Source: a virus. From it: a stretch of 34,814 nt of DNA. Position 1 is the first letter of the stretch. Every line of letters starts with the position of its first letter. Below, piece after piece: positions 3,042 through 34,415 of the stretch. The stretch is from the IMG/VR virus record IMGVR_UViG_3300022939_002825, positions 1 through 34,814 of that record; one strand, written 5' to 3'. The position numbers and the translations under genes are program-made. Below the pieces are notes generated by a model. The model ran no database searches. It was not told the origin of the DNA and saw only the letters and a program-made list of their open reading frames with translations.

Positions 3042-3788
3042 TTATAGCCAGCGATAAAATTTATGTTTGCCAATTCTACCAACTGGATATTTTGTCTTCG
3101 CCCAGCGTGGATTGACATATGTTGCGTGGTAGTGTGTGCTGCCCTCAGTGATCCCTCTGAAGGTTAGGTTGCCCAGCATCATATACGCAATAGTAGTAGC
3201 CTGCCTCCAAGCAAGCTCTTCGTGTGTGTCGTCGTCTTGTCCATCACAATACCAAGAGAATTGGCATTTGTTCTTTACGGGATAGTAAATAGCGTCATTT
3301 GGATCCTCTGTAAGTTTTGTCTTTGCGGACTCATACACTGGACCTTCTTTGACTACTTCACATATAGTATTTGGAAACCGCTTATCATCTACACGATTGA
3401 GGACTACATCAGCTACAGCAAACTGCCCAGCCAACATATCATTTCGTGCCTCATGGTAAATGTTTTGCGCTAAACAATCAATTTCTTCTTTAGCATATGA
3501 GTTGATTCGTCTGCTGAAATCATCCAATGCTTCCTGCTTCTTATAGGATCGTTCTACTTCCTCAGACATATTATATACTTTCTGATTTTCAACAACATCA
3601 GATGATCCAATGGAGGATGGGGTTATAAATGCTGTAGTCAGCAATAGCACTACAATAAGAAATAGAGCACGATAGAGCATAGTGCTTGTTCGCCCTCTGC
3701 GCTCTTCTTTCTTTTGAAAAATTATTCTTTGCTGTTTCCTATATAGACGCTTGTTCATTTTCTTCTTCACACTATACCAAAATAGCAT
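3042..3788 (-). CDS. Cell-wall hydrolase, SleB/CwlJ type, membrane-anchored
   Basis: 248 residues. A basic N-terminus is followed by one hydrophobic segment (about 38-57) that should act as a signal anchor, then a linker. From about residue 101 comes a domain with the features of the SleB/CwlJ hydrolase family: AQNIYHEARND with the likely catalytic Glu at 113, VADVVLNRV, PNTICEVV, CQFSWYCDG (175-183) and the late THYHATYVNPRWA motif. Such enzymes cleave peptidoglycan glycan strands, so it is a candidate endolysin or virion-associated muralytic enzyme that reaches the periplasm by its own anchor. The start has AAAAAGG just upstream. It lies 9 bases after the 806-residue gene, implying co-expression. 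A second muralytic enzyme (GH19) is at 30136-30867. Confidence 0.85.
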   Translation of the reverse strand: MLFWYSVKKKMNKRLYRKQQRIIFQKKEERRGRTSTMLYRALFLIVVLLLTTAFITPSSIGSSDVVENQKVYNMSEEVERSYKKQEALDDFSRRINSYAKEEIDCLAQNIYHEARNDMLAGQFAVADVVLNRVDDKRFPNTICEVVKEGPVYESAKTKLTEDPNDAIYYPVKNKCQFSWYCDGQDDDTHEELAWRQATTIAYMMLGNLTFRGITEGSTHYHATYVNPRWAKTKYPVGRIGKHKFYRWL

Positions 3789-3797
3789 ACTACCTTT

Positions 3798-6218
3798 TTA
3801 GGTTGTAGTTGAGTAATCATCCACCAATGTTACAATATCGTCAAAGTCTTTTTCTAGAACCGCAAAGTCCTCCGTACTTGCTGATTCTTGATATTTTTTG
3901 AGATTGGCATGGAAATTGTTGATTCGCTCACCAATTCCTGCATACATTTTACTATTTGGATCCGTATCCAACGGGGCGTTATCTTCACTCCATCCTATAC
4001 CTTCGATAGTGGTTGTAAGAAACTCTACAACTCGTGTAGCGTGGTCCTGTGCTAACTCTAATAATTCTGTCTCTTCTTCATCTTTTGCTATATAAGAAGC
4101 ATCTGTGGTTGGGTTCTGTACATCTACAGCTAAATCAGCTACTAGTTCTGTATTTAATTCATGATCATTTGCTATACGATTTTTAGCAGCATCTGCTGCC
4201 TCTTGTTCTCTGGTTTCTTCATCTTGTTCGTCTTGGGCGACTCTTTGGTCGAAATCCTTTTCCCAAGCAGTCAAGTCTTTGAGATCTTGTTCTTCTTGCG
4301 GAGTTAGTTTAAACTCATCACTTAGTCCAAACTTGGTTTTTGCTCGGAGTGCTGCTAAGTATTCACCTTTAGCCTCATCGTTCATATTTTGCCACTCTTG
4401 AGTCTCTTGCCCAATCCTGCTAAATATGTCTTCCCATTCCTCAAGCCCGTCTTCCCAATCATCTATAAGATCCGTGTGGATTGGTATATCTCTTGAATAT
4501 CTTCTAGCAGTATCTATATATTTCTTAATCCCTTTAAAGAGATCTTTCAAACCAAGGAATTTATATACTTGTCCTTCTTCTATAAAGAATGGGATATCTG
4601 CTTCAGCATATAAATCTTCATACATGTCTTCATCAATAATTGATTTACCATTAGAATCTAAATATTTTTGTGCCCATTCTTCTATGTCATATAAATCATT
4701 GAGTGCGTCTCTAGCCTTGCCACGTTTTAATCCATCGCCAGATTTCATATCGGCTTTTAACCGCTCGATATGTTTATCTCTATCAAATAGATGTTGTTGT
4801 TGATACCATACTTCAGCATTTTTAGCCATTATAGCAGATTTATGAAGTTTAGTCAAGTATTTCATACTAGGACCAGTCCATTCAATAGCTATGTTTCCTA
4901 GATCTGGTTGTTGATCATAATCACTGTCAAAATCATATGGCTCTTCTGTAGTTGGTTGTACAAAATTCTGTACCTCTCCTACACTAGGAACATAATTATT
5001 TGGGTCTTGAAGCTCTTGCATTATTTCAGCAGCCATTTGCTTTCGTTTTGCTCTAAGCTCACGTTTATCTTCAGTCAGTATAGGCCTATGTGTTGGCTGT
5101 TTGCTTTCAAAAGTTGCTCCCCATTTCTGTGCATGTCCTTGAAGGTCCAACAAATACTTTGTTAGCTTTGGAAAGTCTTGCCCACTAGCTTGTGCCCGCT
5201 GCTGTATATTAGCTAACTGGGCTTGTAACTCTTGAATCCCATCTTTACTATTACTATTAATCATATTCTTTAGTGTTAGAAAAGATTGTGATAGATCATT
5301 TCTAAATTGATCTCTTGAGCTATATCCTTGCAATGGAACTTCTTCTGGTGCTATAGTATTAGTTGCAGGATCCGTGCTAGCCTGCGCCTGTGGCTGAGAA
5401 TTATTTGCCTCTGGCGACACTTCTTGGCTGAAGTCTGCCGGTGTTATAGTATTAACTGCAGGATTCGTGCTAGCCTGTGCCGGTTTGTGAAATTTTTGAT
5501 AATTTCCTGCGGTTTGCTGCTGAATTTGTTGGGTAGCTTGTGGAATCTCAGGCGGCACCTCTGGAGCTGGTTCAGGTGTTGGTGCTGGTGCTGGTGTGGG
5601 CCTATTAGCATATGAGGCATACCTAGCAGCCGTAGCAAGATCCTCTGGTGATGGTTGCTCTGGTTGCTCTGGCTGTTCTGGTTGAAGTGCTGGGTCAGCT
5701 TGTTGATCGCCTACTTGTCCTGCAGGGACAGGTTCCTGTGATACTGTAGTATCTTGTGGTTGTTGGGATAGTGTTGGGTCTTCGCCTTCTGGTGCGGCAA
5801 ACTCTGCTTCTTCTTCTGGGGTTACTTCTGGCGTTGTATCTTGTTCAGGAGCAGCAGGAGCTTGAGTTGGTTCTTCAAACTCCGCCTCTTCCTCAGGTGT
5901 TACTTCTTCTTCTTCAGGCTCTTCTTGAGCTGTCGGAGTAACTTCTTCTTCTGCCCCTTGGACAGTTTCTTCATTTTCTTCTTCTTCATTGCCCTCTCCT
6001 TCGTAGGAAATAATAGATTCAATAGTATTGACACCAGCAATACCATCTTCCTCTAATCCTGATTCACGCTGAAAATTAGCTACAGCCTGTGATGTCTTTT
6101 GTCCGTATCTGCCATCTTCTTTGATGCTGGCACTAGTAAATTGGTTTAGCCATTTTTGAAGCTCTTTTACTACTTCACCGCGTGAGCCTACAGATAATGA
6201 GGTTTCTTGTTCTGCCAT
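3798..6218 (-). CDS. Large acidic protein with N-terminal peptidoglycan-binding domain
   Basis: 806 residues. Residues about 6-70 match the PG_binding_1 fold: GSRGEVVKELQKWLNQ, then DGRYGQKTSQAVANFQ and GIAGVNTIES. Residues about 75-300 are low complexity, rich in Glu, Pro, Gln and Ala, with internal repeats (VTPEEEAEF twice; AQASTNPAVNTITP and AQASTDPATNTIAP). The C-terminal 500 residues look helical and charged, with no recognised family. It is followed 9 bases later by a SleB-type hydrolase, so it may position muralytic activity at the cell wall, perhaps as a virion protein used at entry (inference). The start ATG follows a GGACA sequence, and the spacing to the 6228-6650 gene is 9 bases. 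Confidence 0.75.
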   Translation of the reverse strand: MAEQETSLSVGSRGEVVKELQKWLNQFTSASIKEDGRYGQKTSQAVANFQRESGLEEDGIAGVNTIESIISYEGEGNEEEENEETVQGAEEEVTPTAQEEPEEEEVTPEEEAEFEEPTQAPAAPEQDTTPEVTPEEEAEFAAPEGEDPTLSQQPQDTTVSQEPVPAGQVGDQQADPALQPEQPEQPEQPSPEDLATAARYASYANRPTPAPAPTPEPAPEVPPEIPQATQQIQQQTAGNYQKFHKPAQASTNPAVNTITPADFSQEVSPEANNSQPQAQASTDPATNTIAPEEVPLQGYSSRDQFRNDLSQSFLTLKNMINSNSKDGIQELQAQLANIQQRAQASGQDFPKLTKYLLDLQGHAQKWGATFESKQPTHRPILTEDKRELRAKRKQMAAEIMQELQDPNNYVPSVGEVQNFVQPTTEEPYDFDSDYDQQPDLGNIAIEWTGPSMKYLTKLHKSAIMAKNAEVWYQQQHLFDRDKHIERLKADMKSGDGLKRGKARDALNDLYDIEEWAQKYLDSNGKSIIDEDMYEDLYAEADIPFFIEEGQVYKFLGLKDLFKGIKKYIDTARRYSRDIPIHTDLIDDWEDGLEEWEDIFSRIGQETQEWQNMNDEAKGEYLAALRAKTKFGLSDEFKLTPQEEQDLKDLTAWEKDFDQRVAQDEQDEETREQEAADAAKNRIANDHELNTELVADLAVDVQNPTTDASYIAKDEEETELLELAQDHATRVVEFLTTTIEGIGWSEDNAPLDTDPNSKMYAGIGERINNFHANLKKYQESASTEDFAVLEKDFDDIVTLVDDYSTTT

Positions 6219-6227
6219 TGACTGTCC

Positions 6228-6650
6228 TTATTTTTTATACAGTCGGCGCATATCCTTAGATAGTGATTCAAGGAAATCTCGGTACATTGGATAGTCACCC
6301 CAAGATTTGCGGATGGCATACTGAACATTATCTGATAGCTTGGCTCTTCCTTCAGACAGTTGTGGATGTCTATACAAAGACTGTGCAAACTTTAGGTAGC
6401 CTTTCATTTCAGCAATTGTTTCATGTGCTGAATCTGGTAAAGCATTCCCCCCAAACTCACGCTTGAAGTCATTGTACATTTTGACTAATTCTTTTGACTC
6501 ATTTGTGTAGTGTGACATAAAAGTAGCATATGGTGCGCTAAAGTATTTCCTAGCCCATGCGTCATTGTCAGCAGTCATATCGAGGACTTCCTCTTGTACA
6601 ACTTCTTTCTTATCTAAATCAATGTTTTCCAATAAATCATAAACTTTCAT
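6228..6650 (-). CDS. Late protein with capsid-targeting-like N-terminus
   Basis: 140 residues, mostly helical, with no known domain. The N-terminus MKVYDLLENIDLDKKE resembles the T4 capsid-targeting peptide (MKTYQEFIAE) in its M-K-x-Y-x-hydrophobic-hydrophobic layout ending in an acidic residue. AAAGGACA precedes the ATG and a late-promoter motif (ATAAATA) lies 28 bases upstream. These features suggest a late, possibly head-packaged protein. Its coupling to the PG-binding protein downstream could also mean a tail-associated role. Confidence 0.7.
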   Translation of the reverse strand: MKVYDLLENIDLDKKEVVQEEVLDMTADNDAWARKYFSAPYATFMSHYTNESKELVKMYNDFKREFGGNALPDSAHETIAEMKGYLKFAQSLYRHPQLSEGRAKLSDNVQYAIRKSWGDYPMYRDFLESLSKDMRRLYKK

Positions 6651-6677
6651 TCATTGTCCTTTAAATATCTCTACTTT

Positions 6678-6684
6678 TATTTAT
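6678..6684 (-). promoter_or_regulatory. T4-type late promoter motif
   Basis: Minus strand CGATAAATAAAAG. The core ATAAATA matches the T4 late -10 element and lies 28 bases upstream of the 6650 start, between two genes. Confidence 0.5.
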
Positions 6685-6689
6685 CGTTT

Positions 6690-6914
6690 TTATTGTCTGA
6701 CACATCCAGTAGTTTTGGGGTCATCCCATTTACCGCATATGTTTTTATAGGCTGGTTTATTGTTTCGTTTTGATGAATTGTCTTTTTTGGGAGGATTGGC
6801 TTTTGCTATATCCATCTTGCTGCTAGCACTTGCTTTGCCAAATCTAAATGCATCGCCTATTCTATTAATAAGATCAAATGCACCTTCATCAATTTCTACC
6901 AATTTCATTATCAT
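6690..6914 (-). CDS. Small late protein with capsid-targeting-like N-terminus
   Basis: 74 residues. The translated start is MIMKLVEIDEGAFDL; the second Met gives MKLVEIDEG, which fits the short N-terminal motif shared by several proteins here. The middle is rich in Lys, Ser and Asn (likely disordered). The end has two cysteines (NICGKWDDPKTTGCVRQ) that could bind metal or form a disulfide. It is the first gene downstream of the tmRNA. Function unknown. Confidence 0.6.
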   Translation of the reverse strand: MIMKLVEIDEGAFDLINRIGDAFRFGKASASSKMDIAKANPPKKDNSSKRNNKPAYKNICGKWDDPKTTGCVRQ

Positions 6915-6919
6915 TCCTT

Positions 6920-7230
6920 GTTGTGGGAGGTTTTCTGTTGCCGGGCTTACCCCCTCTAACCCCGAAGCCTCACTACCTATTAGGCAGCGACTAGATCACG
7001 ATCCATTGAAAAATCCAAGGATGTGATAGCTTCAGCAATGAAACTTTCGTTTGCATTTATAAAGTTTGATGGTAGGTCATCGCCCTCTTTGCTCCTCTTT
7101 GATATCGTTATCCTACGTCGAAACTATCATCCCCCAACATACCACTTCGTAAAATGCTATCTTGGTGGAGATGAGGGTGGCGAAACCCTGTCCGTAGCAA
7201 CTATTTTCTCAAGTCATCAAGCAAAATCTT
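6920..7230 (-). ncRNA. ssrA: tmRNA, circularly permuted two-piece form
   Basis: Rescues stalled ribosomes by trans-translation. The acceptor piece comes first on the minus strand and ends in CATCTCC-A-CCA (CCA end at 7163), with a T-arm region AGGG TTTCGCCA CCCT just before it. After about 28 spacer bases the coding piece begins at 7134 with GGGGATGATAGTTTCGAC. GGGGATG pairs with CATCTCC as a 7-bp acceptor stem (one G-U). GTAGG...CCTAC forms a pseudoknot-1-type stem before the tag. The tag frame runs from GCA at 7054 to TAA at 6980. It starts ANESFIAEA and ends DLVAA, 24 residues in all. The stop lies in the loop of a CTGCCT/AGGTAG hairpin, followed by a GGCTT/AAGCC pseudoknot-like fold. The outer ends are approximate. 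A late promoter motif at 7341-7347 probably drives it. Confidence 0.9.
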
Positions 7231-7335
7231 TTATCCGATGTCTGGAACTGCCAGTGCTGTTTCTAAGACTGCTAATACAACAAATATTACTAACATACAT
7301 ATCAGCCAAATCGCTAAATTCCTTGCATCATTCAT
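7231..7335 (-). CDS. Putative 34-residue membrane peptide
   Basis: ATG at 7335-7333 and TAA at 7233-7231. The peptide starts MNDARNLAIWLICMLVIF and continues with one hydrophobic span (about residues 7-30) ending near ALAVPDIG. It lies between the PAAR gene and the tmRNA acceptor piece. There is no Shine-Dalgarno sequence. The late motif at 7341-7347 puts the expected transcript start at or beside the ATG, so it would be leaderless. The transmembrane composition argues for a real gene. The alternative is that this is only the 5' leader of the tmRNA precursor. Confidence 0.45.
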   Translation of the reverse strand: MNDARNLAIWLICMLVIFVVLAVLETALAVPDIG

Positions 7336-7340
7336 ATATA

Positions 7341-7347
7341 TATTTAT
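7341..7347 (-). promoter_or_regulatory. T4-type late promoter motif for the tmRNA
   Basis: Minus strand CAGCATAAATATATATATG. The ATAAATA core overlaps the PAAR stop codon. It is the only promoter-like element seen between PAAR and the tmRNA. Confidence 0.5.
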
Positions 7348-7646
7348 GCTGTATAGCTGGTTCCAGAGCCAGATACTATTGTAGCTACATATGGTCCAGC
7401 AACGGAGTCGCCAACCCTGGCAACGCCAATTCCATCCGCAAATGATACGCCTGATGCTGATACAATTGAGCTTACATGCCCACAGCCTGGAAGGACAGCA
7501 TCGCCTAATCTTGCTACCCCAGAACCGTCAGCAAATGTTGTACCACTTCCTGATATAATAACTCCTGAACCACTCCATGGTGACTTTGGATGTCCTAAGG
7601 GGCATGTACCTACTGTTGTATCACCTATTCTCGCAATAGCTGGCAT
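7344..7646 (-). CDS. PAAR-repeat spike-tip protein (T4 gp5.4-like)
   Basis: 100 residues. It begins MPAIARIGDTTVGTCP, contains a second VARLGDAVLPGCGH and a third VARVGDSVAG, all typical PAAR repeats. Cys and His in the first two (about C15, H19, C55, H57) could bind the metal that sharpens the cone. In T4 the homologue gp5.4 caps the gp5 needle and helps pierce the outer membrane. The start lies one base after the stop of the Hc1-like gene, so the two are coupled. The length is normal for a bare spike tip with no effector domain fused. Confidence 0.88.
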   Translation of the reverse strand: MPAIARIGDTTVGTCPLGHPKSPWSGSGVIISGSGTTFADGSGVARLGDAVLPGCGHVSSIVSASGVSFADGIGVARVGDSVAGPYVATIVSGSGTSYTA

Positions 7647-13886: not shown

Positions 13887-13893
13887 TATTTAT
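13887..13893 (-). promoter_or_regulatory. T4-type late promoter motif for the tailspike
   Basis: Minus strand GCAGCATAAATACACAAT. The core overlaps the stop codon of the nuclease gene and lies 26 bases upstream of the GTG start. Confidence 0.6.
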
Positions 13894-14576
13894 GCTGCTG
13901 CCTGTTTCTGATAGTAAGCATATAACCGCTCATACCACTCGTGTCTCCACTCGTCATAGTTCTCAGGAGTCAAGTCAAACTGCTGATACTCAAAGTCTCT
14001 AGAACACATAAAGATGTGTCCTTCACGAATATTAGTTCCATATATTTCGTTATGTGCTTCAGCGTAGGCTACTAACTGTAAGTAATAGTCAATAACCCAT
14101 TCTTCTTTTTTAGGCTTGTTCGTCTGTTTAAAATCGCATATTGACGGATTACCTTTATACTCACAGACTAAGTCAGTTGTGCCAGCATACATATTAGGCA
14201 TATATACTGCTATCTCAGAGCCCCATATCTCAGTGATTTGGCTAAATGCTTGCTCACGGATAACTTCTGCCATTTTGTGTGCTTGTTGGGCATATGGATT
14301 GCTTCCAGGTGTGGGCCACTCGCCAGTCTCAATGTAGTCCTCAAGATATTTGTGCATCCTAGTTCCTACACCGGCAGCCTCTGTAGTAATCTCTTGTGCT
14401 TTTTGTTCACCAACTCTCTTCCGCCATTCCATTAGATGAGTTTTGTCCTTTGTAGCGTCTAGTACCGTAGTAACACTAGGCACAGGACCGCCGTTAGGAG
14501 CATTATAAAGTCGCTTTCCATCGACACTCGTTCGGGTGAGGGGTTTGTAATCAAATTTATTTACTATTAGACTCAT
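13890..14576 (-). CDS. PD-(D/E)XK exonuclease, RecB/Cas4-like
   Basis: 228 residues. The visible motifs are GTRMHKYLE (His 75), an acidic residue at E121, GTTDLV (Asp 135), SICDFKQ (Asp 148, Lys 150) and the QLVAYAEAH helix (Gln 167, Tyr 171). Together they give the RecB-type nuclease order H...E...D...DxK...QxxxY. Such enzymes digest single- or double-stranded DNA ends in replication or recombination. It starts right after the Nfu-type iron-sulfur protein with no own ribosome-binding site, so translation is coupled. Three Cys residues are present, fewer than the four of Cas4-type clusters, so a cluster is not proven. Confidence 0.88.
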   Translation of the reverse strand: MSLIVNKFDYKPLTRTSVDGKRLYNAPNGGPVPSVTTVLDATKDKTHLMEWRKRVGEQKAQEITTEAAGVGTRMHKYLEDYIETGEWPTPGSNPYAQQAHKMAEVIREQAFSQITEIWGSEIAVYMPNMYAGTTDLVCEYKGNPSICDFKQTNKPKKEEWVIDYYLQLVAYAEAHNEIYGTNIREGHIFMCSRDFEYQQFDLTPENYDEWRHEWYERLYAYYQKQAAA

Positions 14577-24561: not shown

Positions 24562-24644
24562 AAAAAAAGCTGAACGGGAAGAAATCATTACTGCTGTTTA
24601 TATACAGGTACAGTAAGCAAATTTCCGTTCAGCTTTCTTTTTTT
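24562..24644. terminator. Bidirectional terminator with long structured loop
   Basis: AAAGCTGAACGG (24566-24577) pairs perfectly with CCGTTCAGCTTT (24625-24636), flanked by an A run and a T run, so it works on both strands between convergent genes. The 47-base loop folds again (TTACTG with CAGTAA, CTGT with ACAG), which is unusually elaborate for a terminator. Confidence 0.88.
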
Positions 24645-24658
24645 AAAGCACTTTTATA

Positions 24659-27199
24659 TTAATAGACTCCGCCATCTATAACATTAGAAGGTGTAGGGAC
24701 ACCTGAAGCATCATATCGTAAATAGAAAGATGCATCGGGATCGACGGGTGCAGTAATCGTCTTAAGATCATTAGTGCCGTCACCATACAGTATAGAGTTA
24801 ACAGGGACAGAAGCCAATCCTGTTCCGCCGAAAATAACATCCAATTGTTGTTGAACTTTAGTTGTCAAATCAATTGTGCCATTAGCAATATGCTGATTTA
24901 GAACTCCCAAGTCTTTGATATTGAGGAAGTCTGCTGTGATCTCAATTGTAGAGTCATCTACATTGACCCACATCTCATTACCATCTTTGCTAAGTCCTTC
25001 GCCAGCAATAATCATTCCAGCACCAGAGAACTGAACAAAAGTAAGTGGATCAGTACCTAATGTAGGAAGTCCATCGTGTGTAGCAACAAAGCCGTTGTTG
25101 TCTAATGTATTACCTCGTTCTACAAATACAAATACACCACCAGCAACTTCGTTTCCACGATAAGCATTGCTAGCATTGTCAGCATCGCCTGAGCGTGTCA
25201 ATGTCCAAGATGATCCATCAGCAGCAGTTACATCGTAAATACCGTTTTGGATTTGATTAGCTTGATCCTTGACAAGGATTCTCCAACCAACTTGAGCAAC
25301 AACGCCATCAATAGTCAAAGCACCTGAGCCTGTCAATGTAGGTTCTGTATAAGTTCCTGTCAATGGTGCGGTAGTAGCTAACTGAACTGCTTGCTTTACA
25401 TCAAGTCCTTGTGCTACCTGATCAACATATGATTTATTCGTTAAACTTGTTGCTCCAAAGTTTGCGTTGAACTCGTATCCAACTGGGACTCTTACAGTAC
25501 CTGTAGCACTGACAGTCATATTGATATCATCACCACTAGTAGCAGTAATGTCGTTACCATCAATATTTAGATTATCAATTTGAGCATCACCAGTCAATGA
25601 CATTTTACCTGTAGCTTTGTCAAAGGTAAAGTTAGCATCGTCCTCAAGCTCACCAGCAGTGCCAGCAAATGTAATGCGAGTAGCTGTCAAGTCCTCAACA
25701 TTCATAGAGGCGTGTGTGGATTGTCCATCTACATCCATTGTTCCTGTTACAGAGGTATTTCCGTTAACAGTGAGGTTAGCATTAGTTGTAGGCGTTCCTA
25801 CAGTAGTAGCCATATTAAGCTGTGAGGTTCCTACTACATCAAGATTGTCATCTACTTGTGTTGTTCCAGTAGCAGAGTCAAGCACCAAGTTACCAGCATT
25901 AGTAAATACTTCGTTGTTATCAAATCTAAGATCATCTAACAATAATGTTGTAGATGATGAGAAGTATCTAAACTTAATATCGCCTTGCATTCTGCCGTTT
26001 GTTCCGGCATAAGTAACTTCATTGACTTCGATATCTTCAATGTCTATTGAATTTACTTGTGTATGCATGTTGATGTCTGCTAGTGTTCCACTATTGACTT
26101 GGAGGTTGTCATTGATAATAGTGTTGCCCGTAGCACTATCAAGGATGAGATCCATTGTAGCGGTGTCAATTGTATTGTCTGTTGCTACAGCAATTCTAAT
26201 GTCACCAAAAATAGTTGATTTAGCATACAAGTTGGCCCAACGATTGAGTGGGGAACCCAAGTCCCAAGTGTCATCTGTCTCTGGTACAATATGTGAGGAT
26301 ACTTGAGAATTTATTGTAATAGTTTGTGCAGTAGATACACCAATAATAGTATTGGATCTAACATCTAAATCGCCAATCAGTGTTGTATTACCATTTACAG
26401 TAGTATCAACACCAACATCTAATGAGCCTTCAATGTTTACATCATCTGTAATTTCAGTAATTCCATTAGCACTATTAAGAGTCAAGCTGCCAGCAATAGT
26501 ATCAATAGTTACATTATCAGTTACAGCGACTTGAATATTGTTTTTGAATGTAGCGCCTAAATCTACAGTAGCTGATCCATCAATATCTACATTGCCAGTA
26601 ACGGCTACACTATTATTGATTTGCGTAAATCCTGCTACAGTCAAGGTATCATTAAGTGTAGTTGCTCCAGTAACACCTAATGTATTGCTGAGTGTAGTTG
26701 CTCCAGTAACACCTAGTGTGCCGCCTACTGTAGCATTTGCTACCATAGTTACATCGCCTGTCAGTGTAGAAGTGTTAGCCACTGCCAAAGTAGAGTTGAG
26801 TGTAGTTGCTCCGGTTACTGTTGCTGTTCCTGATACAGTTAAGTTATCATTTACTGCGACAGTTCCGCCGTTGCTGTCTAATAGCAAGTTACCTGTTTCA
26901 GTAGTAATTTGATTATTGTCCAGCATCAGATCATCAACATAAAACTCGTTGATTTTCTTATTGCTATCTACAATAACTGCTGCATCGGCTGTTAGAATTC
27001 CTGGAGTCTGATCCAGCATTCGTGTATAGAATGATCCACCAACGACGAGTTCACCTGATGCTGCTCCACCTGGTGATCCTAAATACAGTCTTTCACCTGT
27101 ACCAAAGTCAGCACCACCAACAAATGCTAATTCGCCTGGCGCCAAACCAGTTGGGGCATTGCTAGTTGCTGTCCGTTTAATTTGAATAGTTGTTGCCAT
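24659..27199 (-). CDS. Long tail-fibre protein with repetitive beta-structure
   Basis: 846 residues. The N-terminal region (TIQIKRTATSNAPTGLAPGELAFVGG...GERLYLGSPGG) is the fibre-type domain also seen in the tailspike. Residues about 80-550 consist of repeated short units with VTGATTLN, LTVSGTATVTG, DDLRFDNN and NLVLDSATG themes, a repetitive beta-structured shaft typical of marine T4-like fibres. The C-terminal part (LTNKSYVDQVAQGLDVKQAVQLATT onward) matches the globular end of such proteins. It should form a trimeric virion fibre used in host recognition. AAGGAAAAAA precedes the ATG. Slippage in the repeats may change its length. Confidence 0.85.
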   Translation of the reverse strand: MATTIQIKRTATSNAPTGLAPGELAFVGGADFGTGERLYLGSPGGAASGELVVGGSFYTRMLDQTPGILTADAAVIVDSNKKINEFYVDDLMLDNNQITTETGNLLLDSNGGTVAVNDNLTVSGTATVTGATTLNSTLAVANTSTLTGDVTMVANATVGGTLGVTGATTLSNTLGVTGATTLNDTLTVAGFTQINNSVAVTGNVDIDGSATVDLGATFKNNIQVAVTDNVTIDTIAGSLTLNSANGITEITDDVNIEGSLDVGVDTTVNGNTTLIGDLDVRSNTIIGVSTAQTITINSQVSSHIVPETDDTWDLGSPLNRWANLYAKSTIFGDIRIAVATDNTIDTATMDLILDSATGNTIINDNLQVNSGTLADINMHTQVNSIDIEDIEVNEVTYAGTNGRMQGDIKFRYFSSSTTLLLDDLRFDNNEVFTNAGNLVLDSATGTTQVDDNLDVVGTSQLNMATTVGTPTTNANLTVNGNTSVTGTMDVDGQSTHASMNVEDLTATRITFAGTAGELEDDANFTFDKATGKMSLTGDAQIDNLNIDGNDITATSGDDINMTVSATGTVRVPVGYEFNANFGATSLTNKSYVDQVAQGLDVKQAVQLATTAPLTGTYTEPTLTGSGALTIDGVVAQVGWRILVKDQANQIQNGIYDVTAADGSSWTLTRSGDADNASNAYRGNEVAGGVFVFVERGNTLDNNGFVATHDGLPTLGTDPLTFVQFSGAGMIIAGEGLSKDGNEMWVNVDDSTIEITADFLNIKDLGVLNQHIANGTIDLTTKVQQQLDVIFGGTGLASVPVNSILYGDGTNDLKTITAPVDPDASFYLRYDASGVPTPSNVIDGGVY
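26655..26720 (-). repeat. 36-base tandem repeat inside the tail-fibre gene
   Basis: Two copies start at 26655 and 26691 with the first 25 bases identical, encoding 12-residue units built on VTGATTL. It lies in frame, so copy number changes would lengthen or shorten the shaft. Confidence 0.75.
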
Positions 27200-28865: not shown

Positions 28866-28887
28866 TAATCTCTCCCAAATGCTTTAG

Positions 28888-28910
28888 TAGTATTTATGCT
28901 ATAAATACTA
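28888..28910. promoter_or_regulatory. Palindromic divergent T4-type late promoter
   Basis: TAGTATTTAT-GCT-ATAAATACTA, a perfect 10-bp inverted repeat. The minus arm reads GCATAAATACTACT toward the fibre operon. The plus arm reads TATAAATACTAAT toward 28913-29055. Both are very close to the T4 late consensus TATAAATACTATT. Confidence 0.78.
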
Positions 28911-28912
28911 AT

Positions 28913-29055
28913 AGGCCCAAGGGCAATCAGAGAGGGCTTGCTGGTAAAATCGACGAGCGATGAAACAGCGACAGATTATAAATGAGCCAGCCCGAGCAAC
29001 ATAGAAGGCAACTGCCTGCGTTTGGTAGATGATTGCGTAGCGAATCACCCTTATG
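28913..29055 (+). ncRNA. Putative structured late ncRNA
   Basis: No ORF longer than about 14 codons is seen here. With T4 spacing, the plus-strand late promoter would start transcription near 28913. AAGGG (28919-28923) pairs with CCCTT (29048-29052) and next to it CAATCA with TGATTG (29030-29035), closing a multibranch fold. Inside, GGGCT (28934-28938) pairs with AGCCC (28989-28993), and AGGC-AACT-GCCT (29006-29017) is a hairpin. GC content is above that of the flanks. No T-run terminator follows. The class is not recognised, and an untranslated 3' region of the minus-strand gene is an alternative. Confidence 0.5.
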
Positions 29056-29077
29056 TTATGCTCTGTTCGGACTCTGC

Positions 29078-29573: not shown

Positions 29574-29581
29574 TATTTATA
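29574..29581 (-). promoter_or_regulatory. T4-type late promoter (TATAAATA)
   Basis: Minus strand AATATAAATATATTATAACC, full consensus core, 26 bases before the 29548 start and touching the end of the YqgE gene. Confidence 0.65.
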
Positions 29582-30980: not shown

Positions 30981-31196
30981 ATGGAACATTTAGCAGCATA
31001 CGCAAACGTAGTGACGCCTTGTACAACAGATGGTAAGCAATTGGCATTTGGTGTGCTGGAGCAGACGAACACACTGTTTTTACACAATGACAGTGAAATT
31101 GCTGGTGCGCTAGGCAAAGTAGTTACAACAAAAAGCTGGGAAGGTTGGAAGGCAAACAGAATAAATGTTTTGAATAAAATTGAAATTAGGGGTTGA
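30981..31196 (+). CDS. Small early protein of unknown function
   Basis: 71 residues, start ATG 30981 with CAGGAGAG upstream. The sequence MEHLAAYANVVTPCTTDGKQ continues with LAFGVLEQTNTLFLHND and SWEGWKANRINVLNKIEIRG. No family is recognised. It is the first gene of the plus-strand early block, immediately behind a strong promoter and divergent from the late endolysin gene. Its stop codon overlaps the -35 box of the next promoter. Host-takeover roles are common for such genes but nothing specific is shown. Confidence 0.72.
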   Translation: MEHLAAYANVVTPCTTDGKQLAFGVLEQTNTLFLHNDSEIAGALGKVVTTKSWEGWKANRINVLNKIEIRG

Positions 31197-31557: not shown

Positions 31558-31586
31558 TTGACATTTGGCAGGCACTTTGTTATAAT
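31558..31586 (+). promoter_or_regulatory. Sigma70-type early promoter for the membrane-protein run
   Basis: TTGACA (31558-31563), a 17-base spacer and TATAAT (31581-31586). ACAGTAA starts 9 bases past the -10 box and a GTAAA-TAT-TTTAC hairpin (31599-31611) follows. No other sigma70-type promoter is seen before 33618, so it probably serves the genes up to 33086. Confidence 0.82.
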
Positions 31587-31976: not shown

Positions 31977-32147
31977 ATGGATCTGAGGTATGATATTATC
32001 GAGTGTAACACACACGATAATATATATTACATCCTAGACAATGACACTGGTGTTATTGTACGGACCACAGACGATGCTGACACGGCTCGTTCTGTAGCAC
32101 ATGACTTAAATACCAATGGCGATAACTTCCAATTGGAGACAGTATAA
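31977..32147 (+). CDS. Small 56-residue acidic protein
   Basis: ATG 31977 with AGGAGA just upstream, TAA ending at 32147 where the next ATG begins (TAATG overlap). MDLRYDIIECNTHDNIYYIL continues with DNDTGVIVRTTDDADTARSV. Strand-strand-helix pattern, acidic, no recognised family. Confidence 0.62.
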   Translation: MDLRYDIIECNTHDNIYYILDNDTGVIVRTTDDADTARSVAHDLNTNGDNFQLETV

Positions 32148-32356
32148 TGGGCGGAGCTTTATTATTATATGCTGCTGTGAGCGTTTTCTTTTATGTAGTA
32201 AATGGACCACCCCCACCAGAAGGTTACACACACGACGATGTGTGCATACGATGCGGGGAGGATTATCAATGGATCTCACCTATGGACTCTGCCGTTGGCA
32301 ATGACTCATTTGATGAGAACGGAGCACCACAACAAATCATTATTGAGGAGAACTAA
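32147..32356 (+). CDS. Small membrane protein with a Cys pair
   Basis: 69 residues. A hydrophobic N-terminus (MGGALLLYAAVSVFFYVVNG) serves as membrane anchor, then a Pro-rich stretch and a CIRCGEDYQW segment (a CxxC that could bind zinc), ending in an acidic tail. Overlaps both neighbours by single bases (TAATG). Function unknown. Confidence 0.65.
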   Translation: MGGALLLYAAVSVFFYVVNGPPPPEGYTHDDVCIRCGEDYQWISPMDSAVGNDSFDENGAPQQIIIEEN

Positions 32357-32576: not shown

Positions 32577-32795
32577 ATGTTTAAGATTTTATTAGGCGCT
32601 GTAATTGGCTCACTTGTAACTTATAATTTTATCCTCCCAAACGATGACTACCGGGAGACTTTTGAAGACTTCAATGACTGGACTACTGGCAAGATTGAAC
32701 AGCTCTTTGAGGATCCCCCTGCTACTGAGCAGATCCAAGAGGCGGCACAAGACGCTCTAGACACTGTCCAAGAAACCATTGAGGACTTGAAATAA
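32577..32795 (+). CDS. Small membrane-anchored acidic protein
   Basis: 72 residues: a short hydrophobic N-terminus (MFKILLGAVIGSLVTYNFIL), then a highly acidic amphipathic helix region (ETFEDFNDWTTGKIEQLFED, AAQDALDTVQETIEDLK). The ribosome-binding site is weak (AACTTACC before the ATG). A coiled-coil-type tail facing the cytoplasm or periplasm is likely. Function unknown. Confidence 0.62.
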   Translation: MFKILLGAVIGSLVTYNFILPNDDYRETFEDFNDWTTGKIEQLFEDPPATEQIQEAAQDALDTVQETIEDLK

Positions 32796-32810
32796 ACACA
32801 GGAGTATATA

Positions 32811-33086
32811 TTGATAGGCATTGACGAAGTGACGGCGGGTGTATCCTATGCTTGCCGTTTTCGTGTGGAAACAGTGCTGGATGAGAATGGGCGTCCAGCC
32901 AACCCACTATCCCCACCAAAAGAAAAAGGCACTTACGAATCCCTCGGCATTATTATTCAAAGAGACCTACCTAACCAACTAGTATTACTCAAAGACACAA
33001 GAAATTTTCAAGAGTATATTGTTTCATTTGGAGACATTTGGGATATAGATACTATTGAATGGGTTGATCCTCCCGATGAGGATTGA
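32811..33086 (+). CDS. Small beta-rich early protein (TTG start)
   Basis: 91 residues with a TTG start at 32811 supported by CAGGAG 6 bases upstream. The sequence (DEVTAGVSYACRFRVETVLD, then GTYESLGIIIQRDLPNQLVLLKD, YIVSFGDIWDIDTIEWVDPP) is a strand-rich small barrel of the kind common in marine T4-like phages. No function known. It ends just before the structured region at 33090. Confidence 0.65.
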   Translation: MIGIDEVTAGVSYACRFRVETVLDENGRPANPLSPPKEKGTYESLGIIIQRDLPNQLVLLKDTRNFQEYIVSFGDIWDIDTIEWVDPPDED

Positions 33087-33089
33087 CGA

Positions 33090-33182
33090 GTCCCCGGCGC
33101 TGGGTCCAAATATTCCTCTCGGTTAAAGGCTGATTGTTCTAGGCCGCCCGACGCCACCCTAACCTCCCAGTTCGCTGGGAGG
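33090..33182 (+). ncRNA. Possible structured RNA ending in a UUCG hairpin
   Basis: No ORF is seen. GGCGCTGGG (33096-33104) pairs with CCCGACGCC (33147-33155) in a 9-position helix with one mismatch and one G-U. GGC (33128-33130) can pair with GCC (33143-33145) inside. CCTCCCAG-TTCG-CTGGGAGG (33163-33182) is a perfect 8-bp hairpin with a UUCG loop. It is clearly more GC-rich than the neighbours. No T run follows, so a plain terminator is less likely. It could be an ncRNA or a processed 3' end. Class unrecognised. Confidence 0.45.
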
Positions 33183-33196
33183 CTTCGGACGCTATG

Positions 33197-33203
33197 CTAA
33201 ATA
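33197..33203 (+). promoter_or_regulatory. T4-type late promoter motif, plus strand
   Basis: ATGCTAAATAAAAATAAAGG. CTAAATA lies 16 bases upstream of the 33220 start and directly after the hairpin region. Confidence 0.5.
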
Positions 33204-33219
33204 AAAATAAAGGATATTT

Positions 33220-33609
33220 ATGATTGGATTTGTATTAGCATTCTTATTAGGATTAGTTGTGGCAGATCAATACAAGCCAGATTCTAGTCTTACCACATAT
33301 CAACCGTATCACGAAGAACATATCAATTTGATAGTAGAGAACACAAATGAAAAGCCTATTGAGGCTGTATTCATTTCAGAGACTAGCGAAGTGTATGATT
33401 GGAGCGATAATCAACTACAGAACTATAATAGTAATAAAACTATTTACGAAGGGCAAGCCATTATGATCCAAGGACTGCCATGTGGCTGGGATATGGATTA
33501 TGATATGAAGGTAACCTTTGCTCGTCAAGGAGATTCCAATAAGGAATCACAAATTAGGTATGCGGTACCTGCTCCTTGTGGGCCACCAATTTATTGGAAA
33601 GTTCCATAA
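33220..33609 (+). CDS. Secreted or membrane-anchored protein of unknown function
   Basis: 129 residues, start ATG 33220 with AAAGGA upstream. A hydrophobic N-terminus (MIGFVLAFLLGLVVADQYKP) is an anchor or signal peptide. The rest is a strand-rich domain with two Cys (IQGLPCGWDMDY and VPAPCGPPIYWKVP) that could form a disulfide outside the cytoplasm. Behind a late-type motif in an otherwise early block. No family recognised. Confidence 0.7.
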   Translation: MIGFVLAFLLGLVVADQYKPDSSLTTYQPYHEEHINLIVENTNEKPIEAVFISETSEVYDWSDNQLQNYNSNKTIYEGQAIMIQGLPCGWDMDYDMKVTFARQGDSNKESQIRYAVPAPCGPPIYWKVP

Positions 33610-33617
33610 AAAAAGGC

Positions 33618-33645
33618 TTGACTTTTCTGCTCAGTGTGTTATAAT
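33618..33645 (+). promoter_or_regulatory. Sigma70-type early promoter
   Basis: TTGACT (33618-33623), a 16-base spacer and TATAAT (33640-33645), with a variant AGCGTAA at the place of the ACAGTAA element. Confidence 0.8.
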
Positions 33646-33711
33646 TAGAACTATAGCGTAAGGAAACGAATGCGTGGCACGGACCTAAAATTTACAACAG
33701 CAGGAGACTAT

Positions 33712-34041
33712 ATGGCTACTAGAAGCAGAATTGGTATGAGGAACGCAAATGATACCTTTACTTCAGTATATGTTCATTGGGATGGCTCACCAGACACTCG
33801 TATGCCAATCCTAAAGGAGCATTACAACACGCCAGAGAAGATTGAAGAGCTTCTGTCACATGGCAGTATTTCATCACTCGCAGACTCCATTGAGGAGACT
33901 GTATTCTATCACAGAGATAGAGGCGAGGAGCTAGACATTCGAACATCAGAAACTCTACAAGAGTTTTATTATGATGCCTATGCTATGTCAGAAGAGTATG
34001 TGTATCTCTTTGACAATGGCGAATGGACAGTAAGAGATTAA
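33712..34041 (+). CDS. Conserved phage protein of the MATRSxIG type
   Basis: 109 residues if started at ATG 33712, which has an ideal CAGGAGAC. The 14-codon longer frame from 33670 (also with AAGGAA) is less likely, because the family as I know it begins MATRSRIG. The sequence has a strand-rich first part with VYVHWDGSPD, then a helical region (YNTPEKIEELLSHGSISSL). Proteins of this pattern are widespread in phages of many hosts, but their role is not established. Early promoter directly upstream. Confidence 0.75.
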   Translation: MATRSRIGMRNANDTFTSVYVHWDGSPDTRMPILKEHYNTPEKIEELLSHGSISSLADSIEETVFYHRDRGEELDIRTSETLQEFYYDAYAMSEEYVYLFDNGEWTVRD

Positions 34042-34049
34042 GGAATATA

Positions 34050-34415
34050 ATGGATTTTGACAAATACCTTATTGCGGCGGGGATCATGCCGTCGCCATCA
34101 GAAGAGTGGGACACCATCCACAAAGTCACACAAGCAATGATTGACACTCATCATTTGTTCTTGGGCTTTGTTGTTGATATGTATTTTATACATTTTGATG
34201 AGTATCCTGTCTCATTCGCACAGGGCTGTAATAGATTGATAGAGCACGATCCAAAGGCTATTGGATCATATGCTCGTGAGCTTGGCTTCTCTACAAAGGA
34301 ACTGAAGGTGTGTCTAAAATCCACACACTTCGATCATGTAGGAGTAGATGGACTCATCCGTAAGCTAGGTGAGATTGCCTCTACTACTGAATCAGGCGAA
34401 TTAGAAATTGAATAA
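34050..34415 (+). CDS. Unknown early protein
   Basis: 121 residues from ATG 34050, preceded by TAAGGAAT. A longer frame from 34023 overlaps the previous gene and lacks a site, so it is rejected. The sequence is helical: DFDKYLIAAGIMPSPSEEWD, a middle VDMYFIHFDEYPVSFAQGC and a DHVGVDGLIRKLGEIAS end. No recognised family. Eight bases after the MATRS-type gene. Confidence 0.68.
   Translation: MDFDKYLIAAGIMPSPSEEWDTIHKVTQAMIDTHHLFLGFVVDMYFIHFDEYPVSFAQGCNRLIEHDPKAIGSYARELGFSTKELKVCLKSTHFDHVGVDGLIRKLGEIASTTESGELEIE

Follow-up and report, generated by a model that had tools for sequence, protein, structure and literature searches.

The window analysed here is one entire virus record (IMG/VR record IMGVR_UViG_3300022939_002825) of 34,814 bases, probably a genome fragment, and all coordinates given without the name of another record refer to it. 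It encodes NrdA, NrdB, a ribose-phosphate pyrophosphokinase and endolysin-like genes. Since its NrdA is approximately 71% identical to that of Synechococcus phages, which are known as T4-like, we take the source of the window to be an uncultured T4-like marine phage. A consensus scan yielded near-perfect sigma-70-like promoters on the plus strand at 31193, 31558, 33618 and 34423, and 17 promoter-like sites in the window where 10.5 were expected; the region considered below would, by consensus only, be of the early type. Elsewhere, at 6924–7269 on the minus strand, there is a phage-encoded permuted tmRNA gene (Rfam RF04321 at 6980–7224, 78.5 bits with a gathering threshold of 47) with the predicted tag ANESFIAEAITSLDFSMDRDLVAA, for which there was no ARAGORN report.

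The element under study occupies the gap between the stop codon at 33084–33086 and a reading frame starting at 33220. The stop codon is that of the P0001 gene (32811–33086), the last gene of a cluster of small genes that also includes those for proteins of 69 aa (32147–32356) and 72 aa (32577–32795), all on the plus strand. By the consensus scan, the sigma-70-like promoter at 31558–31586 (plus strand, 12/12) could drive this cluster. The stretch 33087–33203 has a GC content of 58% versus 39.7% for the window, which places it in the top 0.43% of 117-base windows and agrees with the initial annotation, which had described it as GC-rich relative to its surroundings. The 9-position long-range helix described there, here called P1 (5′ strand GGCGCTGGG at 33096–33104, 3′ strand CCCGACGCC at 33147–33155, plus strand), exists: eight of the nine positions pair, one of them as U-G, and the position 33100/33151 is a C.A mismatch. 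Between the two strands of P1 lies a loop of 42 nt (33105–33146), and P1 and its loop belong to a conserved core of 65 positions (33092–33156) that can be aligned in five lineages. The perfect 8-bp hairpin with a UUCG loop, here called P3, was recovered by an inverted-repeat search at 33163–33182 on the plus strand (CCTCCCAG-TTCG-CTGGGAGG), and the absence of a T run after it in the window was also borne out. The extra-stable motif cUUCGg is closed by a C-G pair; it should be noted that the UUCG loop of P3 in the window is closed by G-C instead.

The folding energy of the whole element is unremarkable when set against shuffled sequences, a comparison proposed in the initial annotation (z −0.57; 47 of 200 shuffles fold as well). 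The same holds for 33087–33192 (z −0.79) and for the core 33093–33158 (z −0.03); the P3 hairpin alone gives z −3.93, which is a post hoc value because the hairpin was picked after being seen. The other proposed check, for covariance among relatives, gave compensatory changes in both P1 and P3 (see below). A folding energy no better than that of shuffled controls together with a lack of conserved pairing had been named as the outcome that would speak against the element; the first part holds, the second does not, and the observation is thus confirmed as real and, by comparison with relatives though not by folding energy, as more than chance. Had folding energy been the sole criterion, a real RNA would have been discarded.

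Homologues were found in IMG/VR records. When 50 of the records behind the P0001, P0003 and NrdA loci were searched with the DNA of the element, the first homologue was found in G011 (86% identity over 57 bases, E 2.5e-12), where it lies directly 3′ of a P0001 homologue with a protein identity of 42%; two further matches in this search were 14-base chance matches. The pattern GGTTAAAGGCTNATTGTT, taken from the conserved loop, matched nine stretches in viral_contigs. Five of these carry the element (L124, L126, L128, L130 and L132) and four are unrelated (L125, L127, L129 and L131). L124 lies in the record of G011, and L128 equals L130 over 4058 bp; the element is therefore present in four other IMG/VR lineages, namely G011, L126, L132 and L128 = L130. 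A model (CM R1) was built from five rows, which as training rows score 83–96 bits by construction. Run over 48 plus 50 records (with G042 in both), it matched only the five records already known and the window, and no new independent case was added. Its weak matches were taken as chance (a second one in G011, 14.4 bits, E 0.155; G013, 10.3 bits, E 0.91; L174, 11.4 bits, E 3.2).

Other baits gave no further members. An exact 20-mer of the hairpin, whose sequence varies in the relatives, had 0 matches in viral_contigs, and P0002 and the protein encoded at 34023–34415 found no relatives. P0003 led to 25 loci, and blastn with 7-letter words over the loci collected through the P0003 stage gave short chance matches only. 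The NrdA bait led to at least 600 stretches, of which the 80 best were taken. Distant blastn searches with four queries (window, G011, L126 and L130) against 50,697 phage records likewise gave only short matches at chance level. Among them were matches to the short-tail-fibre gene of Bragavirus (E 0.3 to 5), antisense to that gene, which were judged to be chance because no such target was seen in the records that carry the RNA. An exact pattern scan of bacterial genomes (genome_contigs) returned five stretches, none of them with P1. One of the bacterial stretches, L188 1001–1028 in a Proteobacteria bacterium MAG contig, matches part of the loop at a chance-level CM score of 18.3 bits and is without P1.

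The five lineages provide four distinct core rows and three versions of P1: GGCGCTGGG/CCCGACGCC in the window, GGCGATCGG/CCGATAGCC in L126, L132 and G011, and GGTTTTTGG/CCAAAAACC in L128. Over the four distinct rows 91.7% of the P1 cells are paired, and four of the nine pairs show changes on both sides; the pairing is broken by the C.A of the window and by a G.A found in the L126 type. Sliding the P1 partner cuts the pairing to 25–50%. One shuffle in 500 came up to the observed paired percentage, and one to the covariation score, as against 19/500 for the number of both-sided changes and 53/500 for that of further pair types; these figures have to be read with the warning of the tool that rows which are related may outdo shuffled ones even if there is no structure. 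In P3 all 28 counted cells are paired and two of the seven pairs show changes on both sides. Taken alone, P3 is weaker evidence than P1, because its covariation score was reached by 40 of 500 shuffles. The hairpin is kept with different loops (UUCG, GAAA and UUCACG). As to the strand, P1 gives a tie (25/27 on either strand), and for P3 the plus strand accommodates 32/32 pairs versus 29/32 for the minus strand, so that the G-U pairs of P3 favour the plus strand as the putative RNA strand.

Chance pairing in a GC-rich intergenic stretch, for which the folding energy of the whole element, no better than that of shuffles, could be cited, is refuted by this comparison, since both helices show compensatory changes and the loop is nearly invariant beside diverged genes; we assign it next to no probability. 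By covariation in P1 and P3 and by the conservation of the loop, a conserved structured RNA is well supported, and the suggestion of a non-coding RNA made in the initial annotation is, to this extent, borne out. As judged from these alignments, the structured RNA is genuine; few members of it are known, and no catalogue entry was found for it.

The loop is the most conserved part. Between the window and the four relatives 37/40 to 38/42 of its positions are identical (90–93%, gapped positions uncounted), as compared with 10–12 of 18 positions for P1 and 43–57% for the P0001 protein. The loop sequence itself, beyond the fold, thus appears to be under selection. That the loop is near-frozen while the adjacent protein has drifted suggests that it binds something specific that is itself conserved. 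A 19-letter part of the loop occurs only once in each of six records, and neither a second copy nor a complement was found in these records (up to three mismatches, both strands), which means that no long antisense target was seen in the phage. A protein reading of the loop was rejected, because frames and stops differ among the lineages. A hammerhead-like GACGAGTCC...GGAC at the 5′ side was also discarded: it lacks the GAAA core of the hammerhead motif, and the relatives do not preserve the GUCC-GGAC pairing.

The loop possibly folds as an H-type pseudoknot. In the candidate structure CCT (33115–33117) would pair with AGG (33127–33129), and CGGTT (33120–33124) with GGCCG (33142–33146), which abuts P1, all on the plus strand. 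These pairs are present in each row; they are invariant, however, and hence lend no covariation support, and a comparable pseudoknot is found in 2.8–6.2% of shuffled loops. RNAalifold offers an alternative in which GGCC (33142–33145) is paired with 33128–33131. The candidate pseudoknot brings to mind a decoy or mimic RNA that resembles, for instance, a type III antitoxin (ToxI pseudoknot) and is directed against a host defence or an RNase. There is a precedent in phage PhiTE, whose escape mutants are reported to have an expanded pseudo-ToxI region (PMC5449768). ToxI-type RNAs consist of tandem pseudoknot units, whereas the part of the loop that was followed occurs once per record and thus forms no tandem array, and the pseudoknot of the element is itself only a candidate. 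In addition, Pfam and PHROGs scans of the small-gene neighbourhood recognised no toxin gene beside the element. A decoy is therefore quite improbable.

The position of the element relative to its neighbours is asymmetric. In all five lineages the core starts 1–9 nt past the stop codon of the P0001 homologue (5 nt in the window), and in all four relatives the cluster of three small genes, P0001 being the last, lies upstream in the same order. Downstream, the window has the frame 33220–33609 (P0002); L126, L132 and G011 have a sigma-70-like promoter, a frame of 35–37 codons, a tRNA-Arg and a tRNA-Leu; and L128/L130 have a GMP-synthase gene. From the constancy upstream and the variety downstream it follows that the RNA belongs with the upstream cluster. 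Among the side observations, the phage record of L130 has a GuaA-like GMP-synthase gene at 5709–7445, directly after the RNA. In L126 (12083–12121), P3 is followed by a small AT-rich palindrome and a T run that coincide in part with the −35 box of the sigma-70-like promoter that comes next, and L132 and G011 look alike in this respect; terminator and promoter may share sequence there.

These neighbours also bear on three other ideas. A riboswitch-like aptamer that controls the downstream gene would be in keeping with a compact conserved element and a hairpin just ahead of the gene at 33220 in the window and of the GMP-synthase gene in L128/L130. It is improbable, because the downstream gene differs among the three types, so that there is no consistent downstream gene class as expected of a riboswitch or 5′ leader, because a sigma-70-like promoter stands between the RNA and the next frame in L126, L132 and G011, and because no Rfam riboswitch matched. 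Translational recoding, in which a structure after the stop codon drives readthrough or frameshifting, would explain the position 1–9 nt past the stop; beyond that stop the window has 37 open codons, and in L132, too, no stop interrupts the frame over the length of the element. However, L126 and G011 have a second in-frame stop one codon on, and in L128 a stop falls within the loop. The shared reading of the loop, moreover, is in frame −1 in L128, as against frame 0 in the other four lineages. All of this makes recoding highly improbable.

The third idea, a boundary between early and late transcription, came from the initial annotation, which had placed the element ahead of a late-type promoter. 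It found no support in the comparison, since the element is followed in L126, L132 and G011 by a sigma-70-like promoter, a short frame and tRNAs, and not by a late promoter. The proposed promoter, GCTAAATA at 33196–33203 on the plus strand, occurs 6 times in the window versus 2.28 expected, a count reached by 3 of 100 shuffles. It ends 16 nt ahead of the listed start, whereas YATAAATA before three minus-strand frames leaves 25 nt. The latter sites lie at 13887–13894, 28891–28898 and 29574–29581 on the minus strand, each at this distance upstream of its listed frame, and YATAAATA is perhaps the late promoter of the window phage; its total numbers in the window are not above chance.

We give an even chance to the reading that the element is a structured 3′-UTR RNA of the small-gene cluster, kept as a stable RNA, with a near-invariant loop that binds a partner. 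P1 would hold the 42-nt loop in a fixed fold; this may be the H-type pseudoknot described above, which would stack on P1. The P3 hairpin would close the 3′ side and would stop 3′–5′ exonucleases. Transcription would end, or the RNA would be cut, further on, and the element would persist either as the stable 3′ end of the mRNA or as a released small RNA, and its loop would have a protein or a further RNA as its binding partner. The RNase-resistant 3′ end put forward in the initial annotation fits the place of the element 1–9 nt past the final stop codon of the cluster; the formation of a 3′ end there is the part that we infer. That the loop is conserved in sequence argues against a mere barrier, which would need structure but not sequence.

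The chief competing reading is a 3′ end that works in cis only and terminates or stabilises the cluster mRNA; the loop would then be bound by a termination or decay factor of host or phage, and nothing would act in trans. Such an end would account for the distance of 1–9 nt to the stop codon and for the strong 3′ hairpin, and insulation would be useful in L126, L132 and G011, where a sigma-70-like promoter closely follows. On the other hand, no U run follows the element in the window or in L128, ordinary terminators do not need a conserved 42-nt loop, and 39 of 44 related loci are without the element. Indeed, the window hairpin is absent from the seven terminator-like sites listed and, having no U run, does not look like an intrinsic terminator. 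We regard the cis-only 3′ end as possible but clearly less probable. The unusual conservation of the loop tips the balance in favour of the stable RNA with a partner-binding loop, although the data do not decide between the two. It is tempting to go further and to see in the element an undescribed family of small phage RNAs, produced where a small-gene cluster ends, whose near-invariant, pseudoknotted loop acts in trans on a protein or an RNA of the host. This extension is doubtful; if true, uncultured T4-like marine phages would use an RNA as a means of taking over the host.

How far the RNA is tied to the P0001 gene can be seen from the 44 loci with P0001 homologues in viral_contigs. Only five of them adjoin the element (L133 = L126, L134 = L132, L151 = G011, and L164 and L165 = L128 and L130). 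In the other 39 the RNA is absent beside the gene, which shows that the P0001 gene does not need it. Five of the loci (L141, L163, L166, L167 and L176) had been flagged by a loose text filter; the downstream sequence of each, or of its duplicate, is free of the element, and R1 found none in their records. In a tree of 35 P0001 rows the five RNA-bearing rows require three changes, and the RNA may have had a single origin among them. The P0001 protein of L126 had no match in 50,697 phage records. AlphaFold2 predicts a confident small beta barrel for the P0001 protein (pLDDT 91.8), for which Foldseek gave weak matches including Tudor, SH3 and Hfq (best E 0.16 in the PDB and 0.012 in the viral set). 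A link between this predicted protein and the RNA would be a guess. The P0001 homologue of L142 is followed (3280–3335) by another kind of hairpin, which has GCCGCC in common with the element and is accompanied by a T run and a promoter-like site. As R1 gave no match there at E up to 10, it was not counted as a member of the family.

Among known RNAs no counterpart was found. Rfam 15 matched only tmRNA_permuted in the window, outside the locus, and gave nothing but sub-threshold matches for 32780–33660 at E up to 10; in L120 (evalue mode) and in L126, L130, L132 and L151 tRNAs were the only matches above the gathering threshold. T4-like marine cyanophages are reported to carry CfrI, PhotoRC-II, wcaG, manA and glnA RNAs, and S-CREM1 to carry abiF; of these, wcaG and PhotoRC-II are tied to particular genes that they may regulate (PMC9964418, PMC2864571). 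The element is likewise carried by what we take to be marine T4-like phages. It differs from these named RNAs in having no match in Rfam 15, through which alone the comparison with CfrI was made, and from wcaG and PhotoRC-II in that its constant neighbours are the upstream genes. The species 1 and 2 RNAs of T4 (rnaC and rnaD) resemble the element in being small stable RNAs beside tRNA genes, since tRNAs follow the element in L126, L132 and G011. With filters off, however, the best match of R1 in the T4 stretch L190 was 8.1 bits at 3441–3497, outside rnaC (1409–1547) and rnaD (1554–1672), and by R1 they are therefore unrelated to it. To our knowledge, these two T4 RNAs have long had no known function.

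In bacteria, a stable hairpin at the end can protect a transcript after trimming, as in hairpins that block 3′ exonucleases and in small RNAs derived from 3′-UTRs. The element has such a hairpin at its proposed transcript end, and in all five lineages it comes after the last stop codon of a gene cluster, where a 3′-UTR-derived small RNA would be expected. We know of no member of these groups that is defined by one conserved 42-nt loop, and in this the element is different. Among the literature matches listed (title and start of abstract) no such RNA is described, which is not proof of its absence from print, subscription papers and preprints being outside the scope, and the papers found by a search with the core letters were unrelated by title. 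Few studies have looked at structured RNAs located where phage gene clusters end; for this one the alignment is a ready search model, and clear mutants can be defined.

Two other places on the minus strand of the window should be mentioned. At 28866–29077 two listed frames are approximately 210 bases apart, and the space between them, in which several hairpins are possible, is perhaps the first of the two GC-rich elements of the initial annotation. At 24562–24636, just past the end of a frame of 846 aa (24659–27199), there is an inverted repeat, AAAGCTGAACGG...CCGTTCAGCTTTTTTT, which is likely an ordinary terminator.
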